Shown here: positions 1,185 to 21,026 of the stretch, piece after piece
How the letters are laid out: each line of letters starts with the position of its first letter
How positions within the stretch are numbered: the stretch's first letter is position 1
From: Promethearchaeota archaeon
GTDB taxonomy: Archaea > Asgardarchaeota > Lokiarchaeia > Sigynarchaeales > SOKP01
Assembly: GCA_016839905.1 (NCBI GenBank)
Contig: JAEOTJ010000105.1
Span: 1-21,255, forward strand
Direction: 5' to 3'
Length of the DNA: 21,255 bases
Program-made: the position numbers and the translations under genes
Notes under the pieces: generated by a model
Databases searched by the model: none
Told to the model about the DNA's origin: nothing
What the model saw: only the letters and a program-made list of their open reading frames with translations

Positions 1185-4250
<3,066 letters not shown>

Positions 4251-4303: not shown

Positions 4304-5455
4304 TTATAATTTATTAACAAAATCCTCAATACGATTCAATGCTTCCTCTAATTTTGATAATTCTGTTGCATAGGACATTCTTAATTTATCATCAGAGAAA
4401 GAACCAAAAATATCTCCAGGAACTATGGCAACTCCTTTTTCTTTAATCATTCTTTTTGAAAATTCTTGACCGTTCATGTTATATTTTTTAACGGAAGGCA
4501 TGATGTAAAAAGCCCCACGAGGTTTAACGACATCAAATCCAATCTCTTTTAATCTATTATAAATTAAAAGCCTTCTTTCGTTATATTTTTTCAATATCTC
4601 CTTGAAAAAGCTTGTATCCATTTTTAAAGCTTCAATAAATCCATATTGTGCGGCGTGATTAGTACCGGCAACAGTATAAGTTGTATAGGATTCCATTAAG
4701 TCAATAATTTCCTTATTAGCAACTACATAACCAAGTCTAATTCCAGTAGCTGAAAATAATTTTGACATTGCATTGATCGTAATTGTTCTCTCGAACATTT
4801 CATCCATTGAGGCTGGACTCGTATGCCATAAACCATCATAAATATAATTCTCATACACTTCATCACTAATCAAATATAGATCTTTCTCTAAAACACTTTC
4901 AACAATTTCTTCAAGTTCTTTTCTATTTAAAGCATATCCAGTAGGATTATTTGGGGAATTTAAAATAATTGCTTTGGTTTTATCTGATATTGCTTCTTTA
5001 ATTTTTTTTATATCTGGACTAAAATCACTATTCCTTTCAATCTCAATAACTTTTACACCAAAAAATGCCGCTAAATAAAAATAACTCACGAAATTAGGTG
5101 AGGAGAGTATAATTTCATCACCAGGATTGAATATTGATGCATATGCAAGTGTTAATGCCCCTGAACCCCCATTACTAACAATCACGTTTTCATTAGGATT
5201 TACTTTTATCCTGTTAAATTTTTCAACCTTTTTACTAATTTGATTTAACAACTCTGGCGAGCCTTTCGTGGGAGCATACATCGTAATATTTTTTTTTAAA
5301 GCATCAATAATTCCTTTTACTGCTGGTTCGGGCGTTTTAAAATCAGGTTGACCAATACCAAGGCTTATGATATCTGATCTTCCAGCTGCCAAATTAAATA
5401 ATTCCCTAATTATTGATTTTGGAGCTCGTGATACTCCATGAGATAATTCTTTCAT
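4304..5455 (-). CDS. PLP-dependent aminotransferase, class I/II (aspartate/aromatic type)
   Basis: A 383-aa fold-type I aminotransferase transferring amino groups between an amino acid and a 2-oxo acid. Visible family marks are GIGQPDF (33-39), MYAPTKG (59-65), NSPNNPTG (166-173) with the cofactor-contacting Asn170, SDEVYENYIYDG (197-208) with Asp198 and Tyr201, and INAMSKLFSATGIRLGY with the Schiff-base lysine K232. KLRMSYA near the C terminus carries the arginine that binds the substrate carboxylate. Length is normal. It most resembles the subgroup of archaeal aspartate or aromatic aminotransferases; the exact substrate cannot be read from sequence. The gene stands alone on the minus strand, downstream of the GTPase gene with an 88-bp gap, and nothing ties it functionally to the GTPase cluster. 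Confidence 0.93.
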   Translation of the reverse strand: MKELSHGVSRAPKSIIRELFNLAAGRSDIISLGIGQPDFKTPEPAVKGIIDALKKNITMYAPTKGSPELLNQISKKVEKFNRIKVNPNENVIVSNGGSGALTLAYASIFNPGDEIILSSPNFVSYFYLAAFFGVKVIEIERNSDFSPDIKKIKEAISDKTKAIILNSPNNPTGYALNRKELEEIVESVLEKDLYLISDEVYENYIYDGLWHTSPASMDEMFERTITINAMSKLFSATGIRLGYVVANKEIIDLMESYTTYTVAGTNHAAQYGFIEALKMDTSFFKEILKKYNERRLLIYNRLKEIGFDVVKPRGAFYIMPSVKKYNMNGQEFSKRMIKEKGVAIVPGDIFGSFSDDKLRMSYATELSKLEEALNRIEDFVNKL

Positions 5456-5543: not shown

Positions 5544-6101
5544 TTAGATTACTTCGCCATAATTTCTTAAAATCTGATAGACCAAGTCTTGAAAAGCTTT
5601 CTCGACATTCAGGTTTTCCTTTGCGCTCGTTTCTATGTAATCGACCGCGCTCAATTCTTTTGCCATTCTCTCAGCTTGGTCGGTAGAGACTGATCTCTGA
5701 TCCTCCAAGTCGCTCTTGTTTCCAATGAGAATGTATGCGCCTTCTTTTTTTACATATTTCTTGAAATCTTTTAACCACTTCTGCGGGATGCTCTCGAATG
5801 TGCTATTACGCGTCATATCGAAAACAAGTAACGCTCCTAAAGTTCCTTGAAAGTACATGCTCCGGATCACGTTATATTTCTCTTGACCCGCAAGATCCCA
5901 CATGATAAGGCGACATTTTGCATTTATTTTTTCTATCGCCACATCCTTTCTAATTATGTTTGCACCTAATGTCGGTTTGTAATCCTCTTGGAATGTCTGT
6001 TCAACATATTTATTAATTAAGGACGTTTTACCAACAGCTGCATCTCCAAGGATAACTATTTTAAAGACATATTCTTTTACTTCGCTATCATTCTCTCCCA
6101 T
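5544..6101 (-). CDS. Ras/Rab-like small GTPase (1), GC-rich for this window
   Basis: A 185-aa Ras-superfamily switch protein with all five G motifs: G1 GDAAVGKTS (19-27), switch I YKPTLG with T44, G3 WDLAGQEK (68-75) with the catalytic-Gln position Q73, G4 NKSD (128-131) and G5 ETSAK (157-161). Subtype falls among Rab/Ras/Rho-like proteins. There is no C-terminal cysteine box, so prenyl anchoring is not expected. Ala fills the positions of Ras Gly12 and Gly13. The start is supported by a strong GAGGAG five bases upstream. GC content is clearly higher than in neighbours (about 40-50% in sampled 60-base lines against 22-28% in the paralogue) with many C-ending codons, suggesting high expression or a different history. 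It lies 149 bp downstream of the V4R-like gene. Confidence 0.95.
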   Translation of the reverse strand: MGENDSEVKEYVFKIVILGDAAVGKTSLINKYVEQTFQEDYKPTLGANIIRKDVAIEKINAKCRLIMWDLAGQEKYNVIRSMYFQGTLGALLVFDMTRNSTFESIPQKWLKDFKKYVKKEGAYILIGNKSDLEDQRSVSTDQAERMAKELSAVDYIETSAKENLNVEKAFQDLVYQILRNYGEVI

Positions 6102-6106
6102 TGTTT

Positions 6107-6112
6107 CTCCTC
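6107..6112 (-). promoter_or_regulatory. Strong Shine-Dalgarno of GTPase 1
   Basis: The minus strand reads GAGGAG, then five bases, then the ATG at 6101. It is one of only two strong purine-rich sites seen in the window. It fixes the start and fits a well-translated gene. Confidence 0.6.
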
Positions 6113-6250
6113 AATCTCAATTATATTTAATATTTTTTAAAAATTTTTAGTTATTCCATAAATTTTTTTTTTTTAAATTTATTCCTTTACTTCTTTAATA
6201 GTCATTTCAATTTATTTTACTTGTAATTAATAATAGATATTAAGTTATAT

Positions 6251-6820
6251 TTATTTATTCAAGTTTTCAATTTTTAATTTTAATATAAAATTATTATGAT
6301 CGGAATCATTAACATCTTTACAATCAAAATGTGCAATAACAACTTGTTTTTCGGATTGCAGTGATTTCTGTAAAGAATTAATTAAAAAACCTACAAAAAA
6401 ATCACAAGATATTCCAATTTGAGAACAAAAAACGCAATTTTCAACTTTTACAGTAAATAAATCTTCCGTTCTTTCTATAATCTCAACTTTCCAATCGGTT
6501 TGTATTAAATCATTCATTTCTGATATGATATCCTCAAAACTTTTTCCATAAGGAAAGAGGTAAAAAGAAAAATTCTTCCCTATTTCTTGAAGGAGATCAT
6601 CACAACAAAATAATAAACAATTTTGAGCAGAGATGATTTTCATGAAAATAAAAAAATCAATAGTGTCATTTGGATTTAAATCAGTTTTATTTCTTAAATC
6701 TAATAATTCTGCTTCTCTCAAAATCGATTTTAACCCATCATAATCTAGAGTATCCTGATACGCTTGAAAAAGTGCCGTTATAACTTTATTTTTAACCTTA
6801 CCTTTATATTCCCCAATCAT
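6251..6820 (-). CDS. V4R/Bet3-like domain protein between two small GTPases
   Basis: A 189-aa soluble protein without a firm family call. The second half shows the pattern of V4R (4-vinyl-reductase, hydrocarbon-binding) domains, the fold family that includes TRAPP Bet3: strand-rich KVEIIERTEDLFTVKVENC, then a cysteine-containing C129-V-F-C132, then GISCDFFVGFLINSL (136-150), a strand VVIAHFDCKD, and a final FILKLKIENL strand. Cysteines at 129, 132, 139 and 167 match the usual Cys positions of V4R proteins. Length is close to Bet3 (about 180-190). It starts 48 bp after the stop of GTPase 2 and lies upstream of GTPase 1, so co-transcription with GTPase 2 is likely. Because TRAPP subunits act on Rab GTPases, a GTPase-regulator or scaffold role is attractive, but this is inference. 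A haem-NO-binding-like or metal-binding sensor is the alternative. Confidence 0.55.
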   Translation of the reverse strand: MIGEYKGKVKNKVITALFQAYQDTLDYDGLKSILREAELLDLRNKTDLNPNDTIDFFIFMKIISAQNCLLFCCDDLLQEIGKNFSFYLFPYGKSFEDIISEMNDLIQTDWKVEIIERTEDLFTVKVENCVFCSQIGISCDFFVGFLINSLQKSLQSEKQVVIAHFDCKDVNDSDHNNFILKLKIENLNK

Positions 6821-6868
6821 TCCGTTTTACTTGAGTTATTCAACATTTAATTCTAATTTAGGATTTAA

Positions 6869-7417
6869 TTAAAAATTAACTCCATAATTATTTAGGATTT
6901 TAGAAACTAACATTTCAAAAGCTTTATCAACATTTTCTCCATATTTTGCACTAGTTTCAAAAAAATCAATGGCATCTAATTTTTCTGCTAAAACCTTTCC
7001 ATCTTCTTCTGATACTCTTTTTAAGTCTTGTAAATCTAATTTATTTCCAATTAGGATAAATTTACCTTCATTAAGAGAAAATTTCTTTAAATCTATGAAC
7101 CATTTAGACTCAATATGATCAAGAGTCGAAGGTCTTGTAACATCATAAACAAGTAGCCCTCCAACACATCCAGAAAAGAAAGAACTTCGAGATATTTCAT
7201 ACTTTTCCTGCCCAGCTATATCCCATAGGACTAAAGTGGTATGAATGTTTTCCTTTTCTAAGAACATTTCTTTTATCATGATATTAACACCAATAGTGGG
7301 CCGATAATCGTTATTAAAGCTGTGCTGGATGTATTGCTCTATCAATGAGGTTTTTCCAACGGCAGGGTCTCCTAGTACGACCAATTTTAATACAAACTTT
7401 CTCTCCTCCTCAGACAT
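6869..7417 (-). CDS. Ras/Rab-like small GTPase (2)
   Basis: A second Ras-superfamily GTPase, 182 aa when started at the ATG at 7417. A GTG nine bases upstream (7426) is open but less likely: the ATG gives an N terminus that aligns with GTPase 1, both running into a KxVxLGD strand. Motifs: G1 GDPAVGKTS (16-24), switch I YRPTIG with T41, G3 WDIAGQEK (65-72) with Q70, G4 NKLD (125-128), G5 ETSAK (154-158). Proline sits at the Ras Gly12 position. There is no C-terminal Cys box. Codon use is AT-rich like the surroundings, unlike GTPase 1. The V4R-like gene follows after 48 bp. The upstream 353-bp spacer separates it from the 7TM-longin genes and presumably carries its promoter. Confidence 0.94.
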   Translation of the reverse strand: MSEEERKFVLKLVVLGDPAVGKTSLIEQYIQHSFNNDYRPTIGVNIMIKEMFLEKENIHTTLVLWDIAGQEKYEISRSSFFSGCVGGLLVYDVTRPSTLDHIESKWFIDLKKFSLNEGKFILIGNKLDLQDLKRVSEEDGKVLAEKLDAIDFFETSAKYGENVDKAFEMLVSKILNNYGVNF

Positions 7418-7770
7418 ATGAACCACTTATTAATTTTAATTCTAATAAAGATAAATTGAATTGAAGATCGTTCGTTCTGATAAATCCTTAACTAATTACT
7501 CGTAAATAAAAAATATTTAGAATAAATATTAGAAGTTTTAAAAATTTTACATAAGAACCATTATTTAAAGTTAGTTTTTTCAAAAAATTCATAATTATTT
7601 TATCTGTTTTAAGAGTTAAAAAGAAAAACTAAAGAAATTTTAATTTTCAAATGTTTCTGGTGATACTAAACCTTAGATGTGTATCAACCAGAACAATTTT
7701 GTATTAAATTAAGATTTTATCGGATATAGATTCATGATCTTATTCAATTTTGTTCATCTATAATACTTTT
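7418..7770. other. 353-bp intergenic region upstream of GTPase 2
   Basis: No coding frame is convincing here. On the minus strand it is the 3' flank of the 7TM-longin operon and the 5' flank of GTPase 2. It contains an AT-rich 8-bp inverted repeat with a 3-nt centre (7512-7519 and 7523-7530), about 95 bp before the GTPase 2 start, which could be an operator or promoter element. It also contains the strong hairpin at 7655-7693. Confidence 0.5.
7655..7693 (-). terminator. Hairpin 3' of the 7TM-longin operon
   Basis: A 12-bp stem with one bulged base: 7655-7666 pairs with 7681-7693 (7687 unpaired) around a 14-nt loop. On the minus strand it lies about 80 nt after the stop of the 7TM-longin gene, and T-rich stretches follow (7621-7650 complement). 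It may mark the operon's 3' end or protect the transcript. Archaeal termination rarely depends on hairpins, so another RNA role is possible. Confidence 0.45.
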
Positions 7771-8865
7771 TTAAAAAAAGATATCTTTAGCAATCCCTTT
7801 AATTGACTCAAAAACCTCTAGATTCCCATCCCATTTTTCAAAGACTTTTGAATAAATCTCTTCAATTTTATTAATAAAATTATTTAATAAGATACGAAAT
7901 GAAACCAAGTTTTCATCACATACAATCACTCCTATAATGAATTTTGAAGGTTCAATTAAAATTATTTTTCCTTTCTTTTCAATTACAGAGACGGCTTCTT
8001 TTCTGGTAGCCATTTCCAGCGTCAATTTTACAAGTGCCAATTCTCCGGATATTAATATATCATCAACTTCTACATCTTTCTCCCGAAAATTTTTTTTAAA
8101 TATTGGAATTCCAGATTTATGCATGATGATAACACTTTCAATCTTATCTTGCCAAATATATTCCGAAAAAGTTGGTATTGAAATAAAGCATGAATATAAT
8201 AAAATAACACCAATTATTTGAAAGATATCCCCCAGTAAGCGATAACCTAAGCCTAGTGTAGTTACGACTAATCGTGTAGTTAAATGATATCCGATGGCAA
8301 CTGAGATTATTCCAATAATAATTTTAACAAAATTTAATTTAAAATGTCCAATCTTTCTTTTTACATGAAAATCTAAATAAATTTCTTTTAAATAAACTAT
8401 AAAAAAAAGGAAAAAGATGATCCAAAATGAAGTTGATATGTATGCGGCGTAATCTATGGCAAAAAGGAAAAAAAATAGATAAATAGGAATTATAATCGAA
8501 AAAATTTTGGTAAATAAATATTTTTTAAGAAAAATCTTATAATTTTCCATTATATAAATGAAAAATAAAGCACATATGATTTGGATTAAAAATCCTAAAT
8601 TTAAGCATATTAAGCTTAAAGATGGATCAGTTATATGATAGTCTGCCAAAATAATAAAAAACCACATTATGGAATAACCAAGAAATAACCAAATATAGGC
8701 TTTTTCTTGTAGAGATTTTAATACCTTTTTTTGAGTTTTGATCCTCACCCAAAATACGGCTGATAATTCTAAGAATAAAAAGAAAATTATTCCCTCAAGT
8801 ATTAATAATGGTTCTTTTAATAGGCCACTTATGGGAGAAATGTTCAAAATCACTAATATAACCAT
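7771..8865 (-). CDS. Seven-pass membrane protein with C-terminal longin-like domain (1)
   Basis: Unrecognised as a named family. Residues about 18-230 hold seven hydrophobic segments (for example IIFFLFLELSAVFWV, FLGYSIMWFFIILA, IIPIYLFFFLFAIDYAAYI, IIGIISVAIGYHL and IIGVILLYSCFISIP). After a junction reading SEYIWQDK, the remaining 120 or so residues follow the longin order: strand SVIIMH, strand GIPIFKKNF, helix DDILISGELALVKLTLEM, three strands (AVSVIEK, GKIILIEPS, FIIGVIVCD) and a long helix LVSFRILLNNFINKIEEIY. The helix carries an LISG motif shared with other longin-like proteins here. The domain is likely cytosolic. It starts 12 bp after its paralogue's stop, so the two form an operon. 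A sensor that passes a membrane signal to a small GTPase is inferred. The stop is TAA. Confidence 0.6.
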   Translation of the reverse strand: MVILVILNISPISGLLKEPLLILEGIIFFLFLELSAVFWVRIKTQKKVLKSLQEKAYIWLFLGYSIMWFFIILADYHITDPSLSLICLNLGFLIQIICALFFIYIMENYKIFLKKYLFTKIFSIIIPIYLFFFLFAIDYAAYISTSFWIIFFLFFIVYLKEIYLDFHVKRKIGHFKLNFVKIIIGIISVAIGYHLTTRLVVTTLGLGYRLLGDIFQIIGVILLYSCFISIPTFSEYIWQDKIESVIIMHKSGIPIFKKNFREKDVEVDDILISGELALVKLTLEMATRKEAVSVIEKKGKIILIEPSKFIIGVIVCDENLVSFRILLNNFINKIEEIYSKVFEKWDGNLEVFESIKGIAKDIFF

Positions 8866-8877
8866 TATCTTTTTTTA

Positions 8878-10002
8878 TTATATTAATTTTTTTACGGTCT
8901 TATCAAAACTTGAAAATATTTTCTCTTCACTTCCAGTTATTGCATCTAAATTCAGTAAAATGTTTTTATAGTTTTCATTAAATTTATAATTAATGTTTTT
9001 TAAAAAATATTTAAAGCTGTTCATTTCTTTTTTAACAAACAGAGCATATGTTATAAATGAGAGAGGATCTTCCCCGTGCCTTAAAAATATTAACAGATCT
9101 CCTTGTTTTATTTTATAAATTTTTTCATCTTTCGTACTTGCTATAATTGACATTATCCTTTCAATACCACTTATCCCTTTTGTAAAGAAATGATCACTGT
9201 CCGTAATAGAATGCTGCTCCACTTTATCTGAGGCTCCAGTGAAATTATATGAATATATAATCTTTAGATGTAGCATATCTATGATAAAAAGACCTATTAA
9301 ATTTTCTTTCCATTGAAATTCAAGAATAATAGGAAACCTAAATACACCTAAAAAAACGATACATAATGCTATACTCGACAATGGTGTAGCAATAATGAGA
9401 AAAAATGGTTCAGCTTGTTGAAGTAAAACAGACCTTGAGTATTCACCTCCAAAAAACATGGCCCCTACTATCAATAATTCTCCAATCATTATTAGAATTA
9501 ATCTTTTTCTCACTTTTCTTTCTGAGAATTTTATCATTTTAATGTGAAAAATAAGCATACCTAAAGCACTTATAAATACAAGTATCATTATTAGATTTGA
9601 TACATACGATCCCTTTTTAAAAAAAAAAATCGACACTAAAGGGATGATTGATATAGCACAACACAATTTCATTAGGTTTGGGTTAATTATTTCATGAAAA
9701 TCCCTTGATGATATGAAATAAAGGAATAATAATATAGAAAGTACTAAAAAGCAATTAGTAATTTTAAAATACATCTCCCTTATAATAGGATTTTCAATAT
9801 AAAACTTATTTATATTCCGAAATAAAATTCCGGTCATGGCTAAAACAAAAAACAACCCATTTGCTAAAAAAAATTTATTTAAATCCATTTTTTCATCTTT
9901 AAATTTATAGTATTGATAGAAAAAATACCCAGCTAATTGGTATCCAATAATGACAGCAATAAATATAGCGGGTAATTGAAAATCTCTTATTTCAAAAGAC
10001 AT
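8878..10002 (-). CDS. Seven-pass membrane protein with C-terminal longin-like domain (2)
   Basis: A paralogue of the gene just downstream, with the same plan in 374 aa: about seven hydrophobic segments up to residue 230 (including PAIFIAVIIGYQLAGYFF, LFFVLAMTGILF, FLVLSILLFLYFI and LSSIALCIVFLGVF), then the conserved junction (FRFPIILEFQWKEN against the paralogue's ISIPTFSEYIWQDK), then a mixed alpha/beta tail. The tail has LIGLFIIDM and KIIYSYNF strands, a helix around GISGIERIMSIIAS, strands KIYKIKQGDLLIFLRHG and FITYALFVKK, and a helix MNSFKYFLKNINYKF. The longin pattern is weaker here: the LxSG motif has become TKGISG. It lies first in a two-gene operon with 12 bp between genes. Function unknown; the shared plan suggests the pair may act as a heterodimeric receptor-like unit. 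Confidence 0.55.
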   Translation of the reverse strand: MSFEIRDFQLPAIFIAVIIGYQLAGYFFYQYYKFKDEKMDLNKFFLANGLFFVLAMTGILFRNINKFYIENPIIREMYFKITNCFLVLSILLFLYFISSRDFHEIINPNLMKLCCAISIIPLVSIFFFKKGSYVSNLIMILVFISALGMLIFHIKMIKFSERKVRKRLILIMIGELLIVGAMFFGGEYSRSVLLQQAEPFFLIIATPLSSIALCIVFLGVFRFPIILEFQWKENLIGLFIIDMLHLKIIYSYNFTGASDKVEQHSITDSDHFFTKGISGIERIMSIIASTKDEKIYKIKQGDLLIFLRHGEDPLSFITYALFVKKEMNSFKYFLKNINYKFNENYKNILLNLDAITGSEEKIFSSFDKTVKKLI

Positions 10003-10178: not shown

Positions 10179-10607
10179 TTAAAGCTTTAATAGAGGTAAG
10201 TTGAATTGTGGCTCATTAGTTCTGACTAATTTTTGACCAATTTCGTATATATATACTTCAGCTGTGATAGAGATTATGCTAGGTTGGCTTAAATGACCTC
10301 CCATGATAGAATAGTCCTCTTTTCCAATAGTCACATGGAGATGAATTACTGGCTCATCGTCTTTCCAAGCTACATTTCCCATGCAGGAAATTAATTCTAC
10401 AGGGGTATCTAAAGTTGTAAAATTATATTTACTTGTCTTCATTTGGAAATATCCGATCGTGGTTTTTTTCAAGGCTCCAATTACATTAATTAAACCCGCC
10501 TTAATCTCATATTTCTTTACCATTTCGGTAATTGCATCAATTAAATCTTCGTCTGGCATTATTCTACCTATAACTACACGCTCTACCTTTGTTTCAATGC
10601 TCTTCAT
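10179..10607 (-). CDS. PPC/DUF296 domain protein, tandem copy 1
   Basis: A 142-aa single-domain PPC (plants and prokaryotes conserved; DUF296) protein. The family marks are present: PDEDLIDAI near the start, AGLINVIGALKKTTIGYF (39-56), ELISCMGN (72-79), and the histidine set HLHVTIG followed by MGGHLSQP, which in prokaryotic members binds a metal. Plant relatives are AT-hook DNA-binding proteins; the bacterial and archaeal versions are trimers of unknown role without an AT-hook, and none is seen here. The gene is a near-copy of the next gene upstream, offset by exactly 458 bp including the purine-rich leader; only the middle (about residues 56-72) and the last 15 residues differ appreciably. 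Likely co-transcribed with copy 2 (29-bp gap). Confidence 0.9.
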   Translation of the reverse strand: MKSIETKVERVVIGRIMPDEDLIDAITEMVKKYEIKAGLINVIGALKKTTIGYFQMKTSKYNFTTLDTPVELISCMGNVAWKDDEPVIHLHVTIGKEDYSIMGGHLSQPSIISITAEVYIYEIGQKLVRTNEPQFNLPLLKL

Positions 10608-10636: not shown

Positions 10637-11068
10637 TTATCCTTTATGTTTAGCTTTTCTCAATTTTAACAAATGAGATCTTATTATTTTTTGATCAATT
10701 TCATATATATATACTTCAGCCGTGATAGAAATTATGCTAGGTTGGCTTAAATGACCTCCCATAATAGAATAGTCCTCTTTTCCAATAGTTACGTGAAGAT
10801 GAATTACTGGTTCATCGCCGTTCCAAGCTAGATTCCCCATACACGAAATTAATTCCACAGGTTCAACCAACGTTGTTAATTCATGTTTTCTTGAATTCAA
10901 GTTGAAATACCCCATAGTAGTTTTTTTTAAAGCTCCTATTACATTAATTAAACCCGCTTTAATCTCATACTTCTTTACCATTTCGGTAATTGCATCAAAT
11001 AAATCTTCATCCGGCATTATTCTACCTATAAAGACACGCTCCATATTTGTTTCGATGCTCCTCATCAT
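10637..11068 (-). CDS. PPC/DUF296 domain protein, tandem copy 2
   Basis: A 143-aa paralogue of copy 1 with the same HLHVTIG and MGGHLSQP histidine motifs and identical long stretches at the DNA level. Two ATGs stand together (11068 and 11065); the second aligns with the single start of copy 1, so either may be used. A GAGAG run precedes both copies at the same spacing. The C terminus differs: copy 1 ends in a hydrophobic PLLKL, while this copy ends in a basic RKAKHKG tail after a shortened final strand, suggesting drift after duplication. It is the first gene of the pair and is divergent from the MoxR gene across a 95-bp AT-rich spacer that must hold both promoters. Confidence 0.9.
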   Translation of the reverse strand: MMRSIETNMERVFIGRIMPDEDLFDAITEMVKKYEIKAGLINVIGALKKTTMGYFNLNSRKHELTTLVEPVELISCMGNLAWNGDEPVIHLHVTIGKEDYSIMGGHLSQPSIISITAEVYIYEIDQKIIRSHLLKLRKAKHKG

Positions 11069-16268: not shown

Positions 16269-16643
16269 ATGAGTAAAATAGAAGAAGCTAAGAAATGCTT
16301 AATCGAACTTGAAGGAAAAGTAAGTGATATAATAGGAAGTGCCGTAATAAGAACTAATGGCTTGGTAATTGCATCTGCATTACCTAGTGAAGCAAATGAA
16401 AGGATGATTGCTGCAATGTCAGCCGCTCTTTTAGGTACTTCCAAGAGATCTGCCGAAGCCCTTTTTAATGGAGATTTTAAAAGTCTTAACCTTGAACTTG
16501 ATAAAGGTAATATGTTTCTCATGGGTGCAGGTCGAGTTATACTTGTAGGGATAACAAAAAAAGAACCTAATATAGGACTAATTACCTTAGAAATGGAAGA
16601 TGCCAGTATTAAAATAAGTGAAATGTTCAAGATGGAGGAGTGA
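16269..16643 (+). CDS. Roadblock/LC7 (MglB-like) protein
   Basis: A 124-aa single-domain roadblock/LC7 protein. The family pattern is clear: an N-terminal helix, then IIGSAVIRTNGLVIASALP (20-38), helix ERMIAAMSAALLGTSKRSAEAL, strand SLNLELDKGNMFLMGAG, strand VILVGITKK, and a final helix IGLITLEMEDASIKISEMF. Roadblock proteins dimerise and bind Ras-like GTPases, as activators (bacterial MglB on MglA) or scaffolds (eukaryotic Ragulator, dynein light chain). It heads a two-gene operon: the V4R gene follows 9 bases after the stop, and its Shine-Dalgarno lies within the last codons of this gene. GC content is a little higher than in the unknown neighbours. No GTPase is adjacent; the nearest are at 5544-7417. 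Confidence 0.9.
   Translation: MSKIEEAKKCLIELEGKVSDIIGSAVIRTNGLVIASALPSEANERMIAAMSAALLGTSKRSAEALFNGDFKSLNLELDKGNMFLMGAGRVILVGITKKEPNIGLITLEMEDASIKISEMFKMEE
16634..16640 (+). promoter_or_regulatory. Shine-Dalgarno of the V4R gene inside the roadblock gene
   Basis: GGAGGAG overlaps the last codons of the roadblock gene, 12 bases before the ATG at 16653. This points to translational coupling of the two genes. Confidence 0.6.
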
Positions 16644-16652
16644 AATAAAAAA

Positions 16653-17099
16653 ATGAGCGAAGAAATGGGTGGATTGAAATTCGTGGCCTCGATGTTCAGA
16701 ATGGCGATCCAAGAAATAAATAACATTATGGGGCAAGAGTCTTTACAAACTATTTTCCGTTTAATGGGTGAACGTGTTGGAGAATCCATTGCTAAAAGGA
16801 TTAATGCAACCACACCAGAAGATTTTGCCGAAAAAATTAAGACTGATGTATTGGAACCTGCGTTAGGTAAAGGCGGTGCTGAAATAACTCTAAATGGAGA
16901 TGAAATCTCTGTTATTCTTAAAAAATGTCCGTTCGAAGCTGCGGGAATTGAAATAAAAACACGATTCTACTGCACATATACCGAAGGTTTAGTAGAAACT
17001 GTCTCTAAAAATTCCTTAGGAAACGTGGAAATAGTGAGCGAAAAACTTCGAGCGGTGGACAACTGTGACTGTTCTTTCAAGATTAAACTAAAACCATAA
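16653..17099 (+). CDS. V4R-like (hydrocarbon-binding domain) protein
   Basis: A 148-aa soluble protein whose second half fits a V4R domain: strands AEITLNGDEISVILKKCP with C92, then FEAAGIEIKTRFYCTYTEGLVETV (94-117) with C107, and the closing strands NVEIVSEKLRAVDNCDC with C138 and C140 followed by FKIKL. The N-terminal half is helical (MFRMAIQEINNIM, IFRLMGERVGESIAKRI). V4R proteins bind small hydrophobic ligands or metals and share a fold with TRAPP Bet3. It is translationally coupled to a roadblock protein, so a ligand-sensing or GTPase-regulating dimer is plausible but not shown. A decayed second copy of its 3' end lies downstream. It is shorter than the V4R-like protein at 6251-6820, and the two share the Cys pattern but little sequence. 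Confidence 0.7.
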   Translation: MSEEMGGLKFVASMFRMAIQEINNIMGQESLQTIFRLMGERVGESIAKRINATTPEDFAEKIKTDVLEPALGKGGAEITLNGDEISVILKKCPFEAAGIEIKTRFYCTYTEGLVETVSKNSLGNVEIVSEKLRAVDNCDCSFKIKLKP

Positions 17100-17116
17100 A
17101 TAGATTTAAATCTTTT

Positions 17117-17169
17117 CTAATAGATGAAATAGCTATTAGCGAAACGATTTTGTTTTACTTTTTTTTTTT
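17117..17169 (+). terminator. Hairpin and T11 tract after the roadblock-V4R operon
   Basis: A perfect 7-bp stem (17117-17123 with 17133-17139, 9-nt loop) is followed 20 nt later by an uninterrupted run of 11 T (17159-17169). The T tract alone would suffice for archaeal termination. Confidence 0.6.
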
Positions 17170-17217
17170 AAAATGACAATTATATTAAATTTAGACATTA
17201 GATAATAAATAAAAACA

Positions 17218-17301
17218 GATGCTAAAAACTCGTTAAATATTACCGAATTTTCAAGCTTAAAACTGCGTTCAATAGATAATTGTAATTGTTAATTTAAAAT
17301 A
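17218..17301 (+). pseudogene. Decayed 3' remnant of a duplicated V4R gene
   Basis: Read in the frame starting at 17221, this stretch encodes AKNSLNITEF, then SSLKLRSIDNCNC, a TAA stop, then FKI. The intact V4R protein ends SKNSLGNVEI, VSEKLRAVDNCDC, S, FKI. Sixteen of 27 aligned positions are identical, including the NC-C pair. Upstream, the same frame reads back through two stops (17203-17208) to an ATG at 17173 with a weak resemblance to the DEISVILKK strand, so most of the copy is deleted. It looks like a tandem duplicate that lost function. Confidence 0.72.
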
Positions 17302-17381
17302 ACTATATATATTTTTAATATATTTTTAATTCTCTTTATTAATATTTTTTTTTAAGATTTGTTTAAAAATATTAAATAATA

Positions 17382-18110
17382 ATGATTCTAACGGTTTTAA
17401 TTTTAAAACGAACTGGTGAAAACATTTGTACCAAAACTTTTGGGGACGCAGAATGGAATGAAACTTTAACTAGTGGATTTATTTCGGCTGCTTTTAATTT
17501 TACACAAAAAACTTTTGGTACTGAGATTCAGGATATAGAATTAGGACCCTATCGAATTTTATTTGAACTAACTGAAGATATAATTTTGGTTGCTTTTTTT
17601 GAAAAAACAGATAGTATCATTAATATTCGAGAAAAATTAATTGAATTGAAAGATATCATTTACTCCAAATATGAAGAAGCATTAAAAATACAATTATGTG
17701 ATTTGGAGAAATTTGAAGGTTTGGAAGAAATTATCGATGGACTTATGAAAGAAGCATCAAATATTAATATTAGTGAAGCTCTTAGAGAACAATACAAAGA
17801 TATGTTAGACAGCTTTCGATCAAATGCTGAAATTTTAGAGTGTGATTTAATTACAAGCTCAGGCGTTCCTTTAACGAAAGATTGGAATAAAAATTTTTTA
17901 GATCTTTGTTTAAGAATGATTGATACTTTTTGGAAATCTAAACGCTATGTTTTAGATCAGATTATTCTCTCTTATGAACAGAGATATCTGATTTTACATA
18001 AGATTGATGATAATTTTATTCTTTCTGCATTAATAAGAAGTAATACCCCAATAGGATTAGCTACTTTCTTAGTAGAGGAAACCTCTAATATAATTGCGAA
18101 AATGGGATAA
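17382..18110 (+). CDS. Longin-like plus roadblock-like fusion protein
   Basis: A 242-aa protein that I read as two related GTPase-platform domains. Residues 1-125 follow longin order: strand ILTVLILKR, strand ENICTKTFG, helix WNETLTSGFISAAFNFTQ with an LTSG motif, strands QDIELG, YRILFELT and DIILVAFF, and a long helix IINIREKLIELKDIIYSKY, then a third helix LEEIIDGLMKEA. Residues about 150-242 resemble roadblock/LC7: AEILECDLITSSGVPL, a helix LDLCLRMIDTFW, strands YVLDQIILSYEQRYLILHKI and NFILSALIR, and an end helix. Longin and roadblock folds bind small GTPases in eukaryotes (Mon1-Ccz1, SRX, Ragulator), so a GTPase regulator or scaffold is the best guess. The downstream gene follows by 34 bp. 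The assignment rests on secondary-structure patterns, not on strong motifs. Confidence 0.6.
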   Translation: MILTVLILKRTGENICTKTFGDAEWNETLTSGFISAAFNFTQKTFGTEIQDIELGPYRILFELTEDIILVAFFEKTDSIINIREKLIELKDIIYSKYEEALKIQLCDLEKFEGLEEIIDGLMKEASNINISEALREQYKDMLDSFRSNAEILECDLITSSGVPLTKDWNKNFLDLCLRMIDTFWKSKRYVLDQIILSYEQRYLILHKIDDNFILSALIRSNTPIGLATFLVEETSNIIAKMG

Positions 18111-18144
18111 AAAACAAAAAAAAACAAAAATAAGGAAGATTTAG

Positions 18145-18552
18145 ATGGGAGTATTCTCAAAATTTTTTAGTAAGAAATCAAAGGAAACAATCCAAGAGAT
18201 AGAATTAGATTTATTAAAATTAAAGAAGAAAACCAATGCCGAAATGATTGCAATTTTTGGAATTAGCGGGAGATTGAAAGGGTTACCCTTAATTTATGCT
18301 TCTGATGATGACACTGATTTAAAGAAATTTACTGCTAGATTGTATGAATTATTGGCTCCCATAGCCTTTCTCTCAGACAATAAGACTTTCCGAGATTTTG
18401 TCATAAATTATGAAGATTCAATTCTCTTTTATAAAGAAATTCTAACAAATATTGGATATTTTGCAATAATTCGAGATAAAGATGGTGTATTGCCCCTTAA
18501 ACAATGGGTCAATAAAAACGAAACGGTATTAAAAGACTTACTTCATAATTAA
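18145..18552 (+). CDS. Small roadblock-like protein, unassigned
   Basis: A 135-aa soluble protein with no family that I recognise with certainty. After a basic N terminus (FSKFFSKKSKE) and a helix IQEIELDLLKLKKKT come a strand MIAIFGISG, RLKGLPLIYASDDD, a helix LKKFTARLYELLAPIAFLS, a strand FVINYEDSILFYKEI, and a strand YFAIIRDKDGVLPLKQW, with an end helix. The order (strand, strand, helix, strands, helix) resembles roadblock/profilin-like platform domains but lacks their glycine signature. An AAGGAAG about 8 bases before the ATG acts as Shine-Dalgarno. It follows the longin-roadblock gene by 34 bp, so the two are likely co-transcribed and may act together. Confidence 0.5.
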   Translation: MGVFSKFFSKKSKETIQEIELDLLKLKKKTNAEMIAIFGISGRLKGLPLIYASDDDTDLKKFTARLYELLAPIAFLSDNKTFRDFVINYEDSILFYKEILTNIGYFAIIRDKDGVLPLKQWVNKNETVLKDLLHN

Positions 18553-20531: not shown

Positions 20532-21026
20532 ATGACTCTAAAATGGAATAATGGCCCTTTAGATAAAACTTGTGGATTTAATTTGGAAAAATTAAGTCAG
20601 AAAGAGAGCAGGTTTCATTCCATATATCTTATCGATAGTTTATCAGGTGCCGTTCTTGTCAGCAATAAATATTCAGATAATTTAAGTGAAACTAATGAAG
20701 ATTTAATAAGTGGCTTTTTAAATGCAATAAACATGTTTATTAGGGAGATTAGAAAGGAGAAAGAAGAAATACAAGAAATTAATTTTAATGATTCAAGAAT
20801 TTTATATGAAAGAAAAGAGCGACTTGTGGTTATAGGTATATCAAAAAAAACAAATTTACAAATTGAAAGACATTTTTTACATGAAATCCTAAATGATTTT
20901 TATTATAGGTTTAAAAATCAAATAAATATTTTCAAAGGTCTTATTCCTCCGAAAATGCTGGATTATAAGAAAAATTTAAGAGATTTAAGTTATAACTCGC
21001 TTTTTAATTATAAATTAAAATTATAA
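20532..21026 (+). CDS. Soluble longin-like protein
   Basis: A 164-aa protein with a longin-like order in residues 25-135: strand FHSIYLIDS, strand GAVLVSNKYS, helix NEDLISGFLNAINMFIREI, strands IQEINFND, RILYERKE and RLVVIGISKK, and a helix LQIERHFLHEILNDFYYRF. The first helix carries LISG, the motif also seen in the longin-like domains at 7771-8865 and 17382-18110. The basic C-terminal tail (KKNLRDLSYNSLF, KLKL) is unstructured in appearance. There is no membrane segment. AAAGGA about 8 bases before the ATG is a plausible Shine-Dalgarno. It is divergent from the 19866-20339 gene across a 192-bp AT-rich spacer. Role inferred: partner of a small GTPase or of other longin proteins. Confidence 0.6.
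   Translation: MTLKWNNGPLDKTCGFNLEKLSQKESRFHSIYLIDSLSGAVLVSNKYSDNLSETNEDLISGFLNAINMFIREIRKEKEEIQEINFNDSRILYERKERLVVIGISKKTNLQIERHFLHEILNDFYYRFKNQINIFKGLIPPKMLDYKKNLRDLSYNSLFNYKLKL

Follow-up and report, generated by a model that had tools for sequence, protein, structure and literature searches.

A V4R/Bet3/H-NOX-superfamily gene and a Rab-like GTPase gene as a candidate signalling pair in Asgard archaea, apart from a neighbouring 7TM-longin pair

Asgard genomes carry dozens of Rab-like GTPases, with 23–69 matches per genome in the searches described below, and the gap lies in assigning regulators to them. We analysed here a block of five genes. The block lies in a 21,255-nucleotide stretch of a Promethearchaeota archaeon (contig JAEOTJ010000105.1 of assembly GCA_016839905.1), which we call the window throughout, and consists of GTP1, V189, GTP2, TM364 and TM374, all five of which were found as open reading frames on the minus strand (Table 1), consecutive as the first-pass annotation had described them. 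That annotation had identified two Ras-like GTPases, a V4R/Bet3-like protein (V189) and two proteins joining seven transmembrane helices (7TM) to a longin domain, and it had suggested that the V4R-like protein and the longins could be a minimal relative of TRAPP. Our analysis gives a different answer, in which V189 and GTP1 would form a two-gene signalling module from which the 7TM-longin pair stands apart; taken as a whole, we judge this reading to have somewhat better than even chances.

The evidence that carries this reading is the gene order in relatives. A genome scan with the 189-amino-acid protein found relatives at 60–65% identity at seven loci in metagenome-assembled genomes of Lokiarchaeota/Lokiarchaeia, and a survey of the family in 227 genomes of the Asgard phylum, which are species-level and not independent, found it in 64 genomes at 66 places, spread over no fewer than three clearly distinct lineages (Loki-type, Helarchaeal-type L097–L100, and L101–L103). 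All 66 loci were examined with their surroundings, in stretches no longer than 19.8 kb, of which 36 measured 15 kb or more and 11 less than 10 kb; the 60 loci in which 700 bases or more follow V189 were regarded as testable. A same-strand GTPase gene followed V189 within 300 nt in 56 of these 60 loci, and with the limit set at 1 kb the count was 58, the loci outside the 300-nt limit being L075 (378 nt), L047 (941 nt), L087 (none) and L096, whose stretch has runs of N and in which tblastn placed a 50%-identical GTPase 95 nt from V189. In the seven distant pairs L097–L103 the two genes were separated by -4 to 30 nt. As a control we took further Asgard V4R loci outside the V189 family, no more than two from any genome and 40 in all, and found a GTPase in the fetched stretch of two of them (about 3 kb on each side, 11 of the 40 stretches being under 5 kb at contig ends). 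From the conserved gene order and this control we conclude that V189 and GTP1 are likely to be linked in function, in agreement with the earlier proposal that the V4R-like protein is functionally tied to a GTPase. The same control speaks against V4R genes in general being neighbours of GTPases.

The wider neighbourhood is conserved less strictly. The common Loki-type order is MoxR (on the opposite strand), GTPase, PCC, GTPase, V189, GTP1 and aminotransferase, parts of which are often missing; of the 66 loci, 34 had PCC, 24 had MoxR and 51 had the aminotransferase, and a second GTPase gene stood within 150 nt upstream of V189 in 21 of 59. Of the expectation that the gene order would recur in other Asgard genomes, two parts held, as both V189-GTP1 and TM374-TM364 recur, but the two pairs do not recur together as one unit of five genes.

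We then asked which GTPase accompanies V189. When the window's GTP1 was used as query in 14 genomes of our choice (nine distant and five near, each with its 23–69 GTPase matches at E <= 1e-10), the V189-adjacent GTPase was the best match in 12, including all nine distant ones. Similarly, in a FastTree phylogeny of GTPases (n=175), 53 of the 60 V189-adjacent GTPases, the window's among them, formed one clade containing no others (support 0.916), and a background row, L217, fell among the GTPases upstream of V189. Searching 20 genomes that lack V189 with GTP1 yielded 12 without any GTPase match over 46% identity; a 63% identical GTPase in G126 lies at a contig end and is uninformative on V189.

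As for V189 itself, its predicted model (pLDDT 90.7) shows a V4R/Bet3-type fold, and a fold search matched it to the H-NOX, PoxR and Bet3 families. Residues 9–186 of the model aligned with residues 1–180 of H-NOX, thus over the whole domain with its N-terminal helical part, and among the matches listed residues 9–41 were aligned to H-NOX but not to Bet3-family chains, the fold being closer to H-NOX than to Bet3. Entries of Thor-TRAPPC3 were absent among the 50 matches listed, although a match may lie beyond these. At the level of sequence, V189 had no Pfam match over cut-off, V4R (PF02830, 31 bits) and HNOB included. The V4R cut-off was, however, passed by four of ten relatives scanned (L097–L100), which match the V189 family profiles, and a family profile matched the V4R structure of MJ1460 (E 6e-4); profile A1 of the family gave no credible match to solved structures, and the narrow family did not match the H-NOX profile. 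By its predicted fold and its distant relatives, then, V189 is a member of the V4R/Bet3/H-NOX superfamily, so that the earlier V4R/Bet3-like label stands as to superfamily and relatives and gives way as to Bet3 being the nearest fold.

Three cysteines of V189, C129, C132 and C139 (C-x2-C-x6-C), were kept in all 54 near relatives covering them, and H175 was kept in 49 of the 54. In a weak profile alignment (E 0.043) these cysteines line up with the C-x2-C...C of Thor-TRAPPC3 (7yh3). According to published reports, four cysteines bind zinc in Thor-TRAPPC3 and PoxR in a region contributing to the cavity, ligand cavities occur in both proteins (PMC10933270), and the cysteines of the MsvR V4R domain take part in a redox-dependent change, as mutants suggest (PMC3729527). 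A metal or redox role of the Loki-type V189 is plausible. Heme is another matter. H-NOX proteins bind heme through a proximal histidine and the YxSxR residues, and in three Asgard H-NOX proteins H104, Y133, S135 and R137 (Y-x-S-x-R) were invariant; V189, in its sequence and in an alignment, has no histidine in residues 84–128 and no YxSxR, and the reading of V189 as an H-NOX of the canonical, heme-binding kind is rejected on this ground. Few genomes of the phylum have an HNOB gene, the cut-off being exceeded in 5 of 227, and the three H-NOX proteins compared are among these.

Both GTPases bear out the earlier identification, as GTP1 and GTP2 match Pfam Ras (PF00071, cut-off 21.6) with 176 and 158 bits and contain a Ras-family G domain, and the best solved-structure match of GTP1 is Rab11A (E 2.6e-38). 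The GTPase motifs P-loop, DxAGQE, NKxD and TSAK can be read in both translations. An in-frame ATG three codons inside the listed GTG start may be the true start of GTP2. Neither protein has a cysteine in its last 12 residues, where eukaryotic Rabs carry their prenylation cysteines, and a cysteine occurred among the last six residues in one of the 60 V189-adjacent GTPases. Of 52 sequences comprising GTP1 and its near relatives, 39 carry an N-[Y/H]-G tail. This tail was found in none of 28 other GTPases in V189 loci, in one of 23 just upstream of V189 and in none of 22 GTPases close to the 7TM genes, but GTP2 of the window also carries it. In the tree, GTP2 groups (support 0.858) with ten GTPases, its nearest rows, whose genes in relatives lie upstream of PCC.

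The identification of two 7TM-longin proteins was supported as well, for TM364 by model and fold search and for TM374 by homology to it. An AF2 model of TM364 (mean pLDDT 78.8) has seven long helices in residues 17–229 followed by a domain with the longin fold (β-β-α-β-β-β-α), as the fold search indicated, and K/R residues are more numerous in its loops on the longin side (9 versus 1). TM374 is a full-length homologue (hhalign of A3 against A4, 347 columns, probability 99.7%, E 1.2e-25) with about seven hydrophobic segments once overlaps are merged, and from its sequence we take it to be a 7TM protein of the same kind. The two genes stood in tandem in 40 of 40 loci and, elsewhere, sit with other GTPases. 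In the 66 V189 loci, 11 of which are stretches under 10 kb, TM374 was absent and a TM364 relative occurred once. In our reading TM374-TM364 is a second module, separate from V189-GTP1.

Several results weigh against V189 and GTP1 as a module. The V189-adjacent GTPase is not the best match of GTP1 in G089 and G091; the seven V189-adjacent GTPases outside the large clade form two further groups, making three overall, and a single origin is not established even though it was not rejected (p-AU 0.169, in a test that left out the upstream GTPases and L217). L087 has no GTPase in the 2.9 kb available downstream of V189, and diverged second copies of the family in G089 (L278) and G090 (L279), detected with a wider profile at 121 and 103 bits and lying outside the 60 loci, have no GTPase in their flanks of 0.8–1.5 kb on each side. 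GTPases 53–59% identical to GTP1 occur in G100–G104, G113 and G138 with no V189 in the fetched flank, and in G100, G101, G102 and G104 (L261–L268) PCC with two tandem GTPases after it is present without V189. Of nine distant relatives of V189, L095, L096 and L100 have all three cysteines, L097–L099 keep them partly and L101–L103 have none, and because they are incomplete in most distant relatives, a metal or redox role common to the whole family is unlikely. Likewise, the N-[Y/H]-G tail was found in none of eight distant V189 partners. Most V189 genes thus stand beside a GTPase gene, whereas GTPases of the related kind can manage without V189, as would be expected of a regulator or effector.

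How might the pair work? In the reading that we prefer, V189 would be a cytosolic sensor-type partner with the N-terminal helical part of an H-NOX but without its heme residues, in which the C-x2-C-x6-C and the near-invariant histidine of the near relatives could bind a metal or react to the redox state. Most likely it would sense a small hydrophobic or redox signal and, touching its cognate Rab-like GTPase GTP1 directly, relay this signal so as to set the nucleotide state or the membrane place of the latter. The longin domains of TM374 and TM364, for their part, could pair on the cytoplasmic side into a platform on which a small GTPase, here perhaps GTP2, would dock or exchange its nucleotide. 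A bolder generalization, which we consider unlikely, is that Loki- and Helarchaea equip Ras/Rab switches with dedicated sensors, a protein of heme-less H-NOX fold providing the soluble ligand or redox input of one Rab-like GTPase, and paired 7TM-longin receptors acting as exchange factors for other GTPases at the membrane; if it were true, a receptor would use a longin dimer to contact a small GTPase directly, and a principle like that of G-protein-coupled receptors would be older than heterotrimeric G proteins.

The main rival to a sensor is a lipid- or tail-binding adaptor, in which V189 is an effector bound by active GTP1, holds a lipid or the GTPase tail in its pocket and so brings a GTPase devoid of prenylation cysteines to membranes. 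The missing C-terminal cysteines of GTP1 and its V189-adjacent relatives speak for it, as does a tail motif that is frequent in GTP1 and its near relatives and rare in the other GTPases of V189 loci, and there are precedents in yeast TRAPPII, which has the Ypt32 tail in the pocket of Trs31 (PMC10152722), and in mouse TRAPPC3, which binds palmitate (PMC10933270). On the other hand, the motif is shared by the window's GTP2 and does not extend to the distant partners, and other Asgard proteins were diffuse and not at the membrane in HeLa cells (Tran et al., PMC10933270), and we give the adaptor a low probability. Somewhat less probable still is that V189 and GTP1 have no direct functional link and merely travel together in a part of the chromosome that changes slowly. 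For this speak the other genes retained near V189 in Loki-type genomes, namely those of the aminotransferase and of the CDC48-like, KTI12-like and GIY-YIG proteins, and the second V189-family copies, which stand without a GTPase. However, the distant loci lose these neighbours and keep the pair, with gaps down to -4 nt: no aminotransferase relative occurs in any of the nine distant V189 loci, and all six with 13–20 kb available (L096, L097, L098, L100, L101 and L103) have the V189-GTPase pair, with CDC48 and KTI12 neighbours in L096 alone (the stretches of L095 and L102 are too short for this comparison).

The minimal archaeal TRAPP, in which V189 and the longin domains of TM364 and TM374 would together be the exchange factor for GTP1 and GTP2, appears very improbable to us. 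The suggestion arose from the order of the genes in the window, but the longin pair does not accompany V189-GTP1 in relatives and is found with other GTPases elsewhere, and V189 is closer to H-NOX, its residues 9–41 having no aligned counterpart in the Bet3-family chains listed. In TRAPP, moreover, the exchange site is mostly built from the longin subunits C1 and C4, and the C4-C1-C3 subcomplex had no exchange activity before C5 was added (PMC10152722). Since the gene order is not kept and the exchange site of TRAPP is mostly made of longins, the minimal TRAPP fails, and as a conserved arrangement it is ruled out by the gene order in relatives.

The proposed V189-GTP1 module differs from known systems in several respects. 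From the H-NOX (HNOB, PF07700) heme sensors V189 is set apart by the lack of any counterpart to their His and Y-x-S-x-R and of a Pfam HNOB match, and from the V4R proteins (PF02830; PoxR/MopR/DmpR, MsvR, MJ1460) by being free-standing next to a GTPase and, in the window's copy, without the V4R sequence signature. From TRAPPC3/Bet3 and Thor-TRAPPC3 (7YH2/7YH3), which are more distant from it in fold than H-NOX is, V189 differs by its H-NOX-like N-terminal part and by having no conserved longin partner gene. V189-GTP1 resembles MglA-MglB and other prokaryotic Ras-like pairs in that a small GTPase gene lies beside that of a presumed regulator, but MglB is a roadblock protein. The TM364 longin differs from the longin exchange-factor platforms (TRAPPC1-C4, Mon1-Ccz1, Fuzzy-Inturned) in its fusion to seven transmembrane helices. 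The homology of V4R and Bet3 was published in 2008 (PMC2253512) and Asgard TRAPPC3/V4R structures in 2024 (PMC10933270), and in the main text of a survey (PMC4316618) V4R, longin and H-NOX are mentioned 0 times. In titles and beginnings of abstracts of the open-licence literature we found no description of a gene pair of a V4R/H-NOX-fold protein and a Rab-like GTPase or of the 7TM-longin pair.

In MK-D1, GTPase genes do not as a rule share an operon with genes of RB, longin or TRAPPC3 proteins, and GTPases and regulators are therefore hard to match from genome layout (Tran et al. 2024, PMC10933270). In other lineages V189-GTP1 is a conserved exception to this, and its two small soluble proteins are suited to binding and exchange assays. 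With a V4R/Bet3-superfamily gene next to that of a Rab-like GTPase outside eukaryotes, the origin of the Bet3-Rab partnership becomes testable. The 7TM-longin pair is a candidate for coupling a membrane receptor directly to a small GTPase, and together with V189-GTP1 it offers a concrete candidate for the control of GTPase switches in relatives of eukaryotes.

Table 1. Positions in the window of the block genes, their parts and the flanking genes
Feature	Position	Strand	Remarks
GTP1	5544..6101	-	185 aa; small GTPase, Rab-like and of a single domain; gene paired with V189
V189	6251..6820	-	189 aa; V4R/Bet3/H-NOX-superfamily protein (predicted fold)
V189 codons spanning C129, C132, C139 and H175	6296..6436	-	possible metal site; includes other residues
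GTP2	6869..7426	-	185 aa with listed GTG start; second Rab-like GTPase
TM364	7771..8865	-	364 aa; 7TM protein with C-terminal longin domain
TM364 longin domain	7774..8148	-	residues 240-364
TM364 seven transmembrane helices	8179..8817	-	residues 17-229; from model and hydropathy
TM374	8878..10002	-	374 aa; TM364 homologue, first in tandem pair
PCC (PF03479) protein	10179..10607	-	Pfam 105.5 bits; in relatives often found near V189-GTP1
Second PCC (PF03479) protein, tandem copy	10637..11068	-	102.2 bits
Class I/II aminotransferase	4304..5455	-	Pfam 221 bits; usually downstream of GTP1 in Loki-type relatives

In the window the block is flanked by the two tandem PCC genes upstream and the aminotransferase gene downstream; we know of no link between the PCC domain and GTPases. 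Beyond the aminotransferase lie, on the plus strand, the gene of the CDC48-like AAA protein (1185-4250, 1021 aa), which apparently has three ATPase domains, as judged from its sequence, and whose relatives in the same neighbourhood aligned over 743-773 residues, and that of the KTI12-like P-loop protein (285-1088; 124 bits against a cut-off of 22), which adjoins the GIY-YIG gene at 7-276. A second cluster resembling GTPase regulators (16269-18552, plus strand) comprises a roadblock protein (PF03259), a V4R-superfamily-like protein (16653-17099, plus strand) with sub-threshold matches to MetOD1 and MsvR, and proteins of 242 and 135 amino acids without a Pfam match. The order roadblock, V4R-like, 242-aa protein was kept in all ten loci compared (the best 10 of 29 matches), with the 135-aa gene in nine of them, and the V4R-like gene of this cluster is present in 25 of 227 genomes. 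Finally, a 164-aa protein (20532-21026, plus strand) gave a sub-threshold match to the first longin domain of FUZ/MON1/HPS1 (E 0.0097), and in many V189 loci its gene adjoins those of a 157-aa protein and a small membrane protein.

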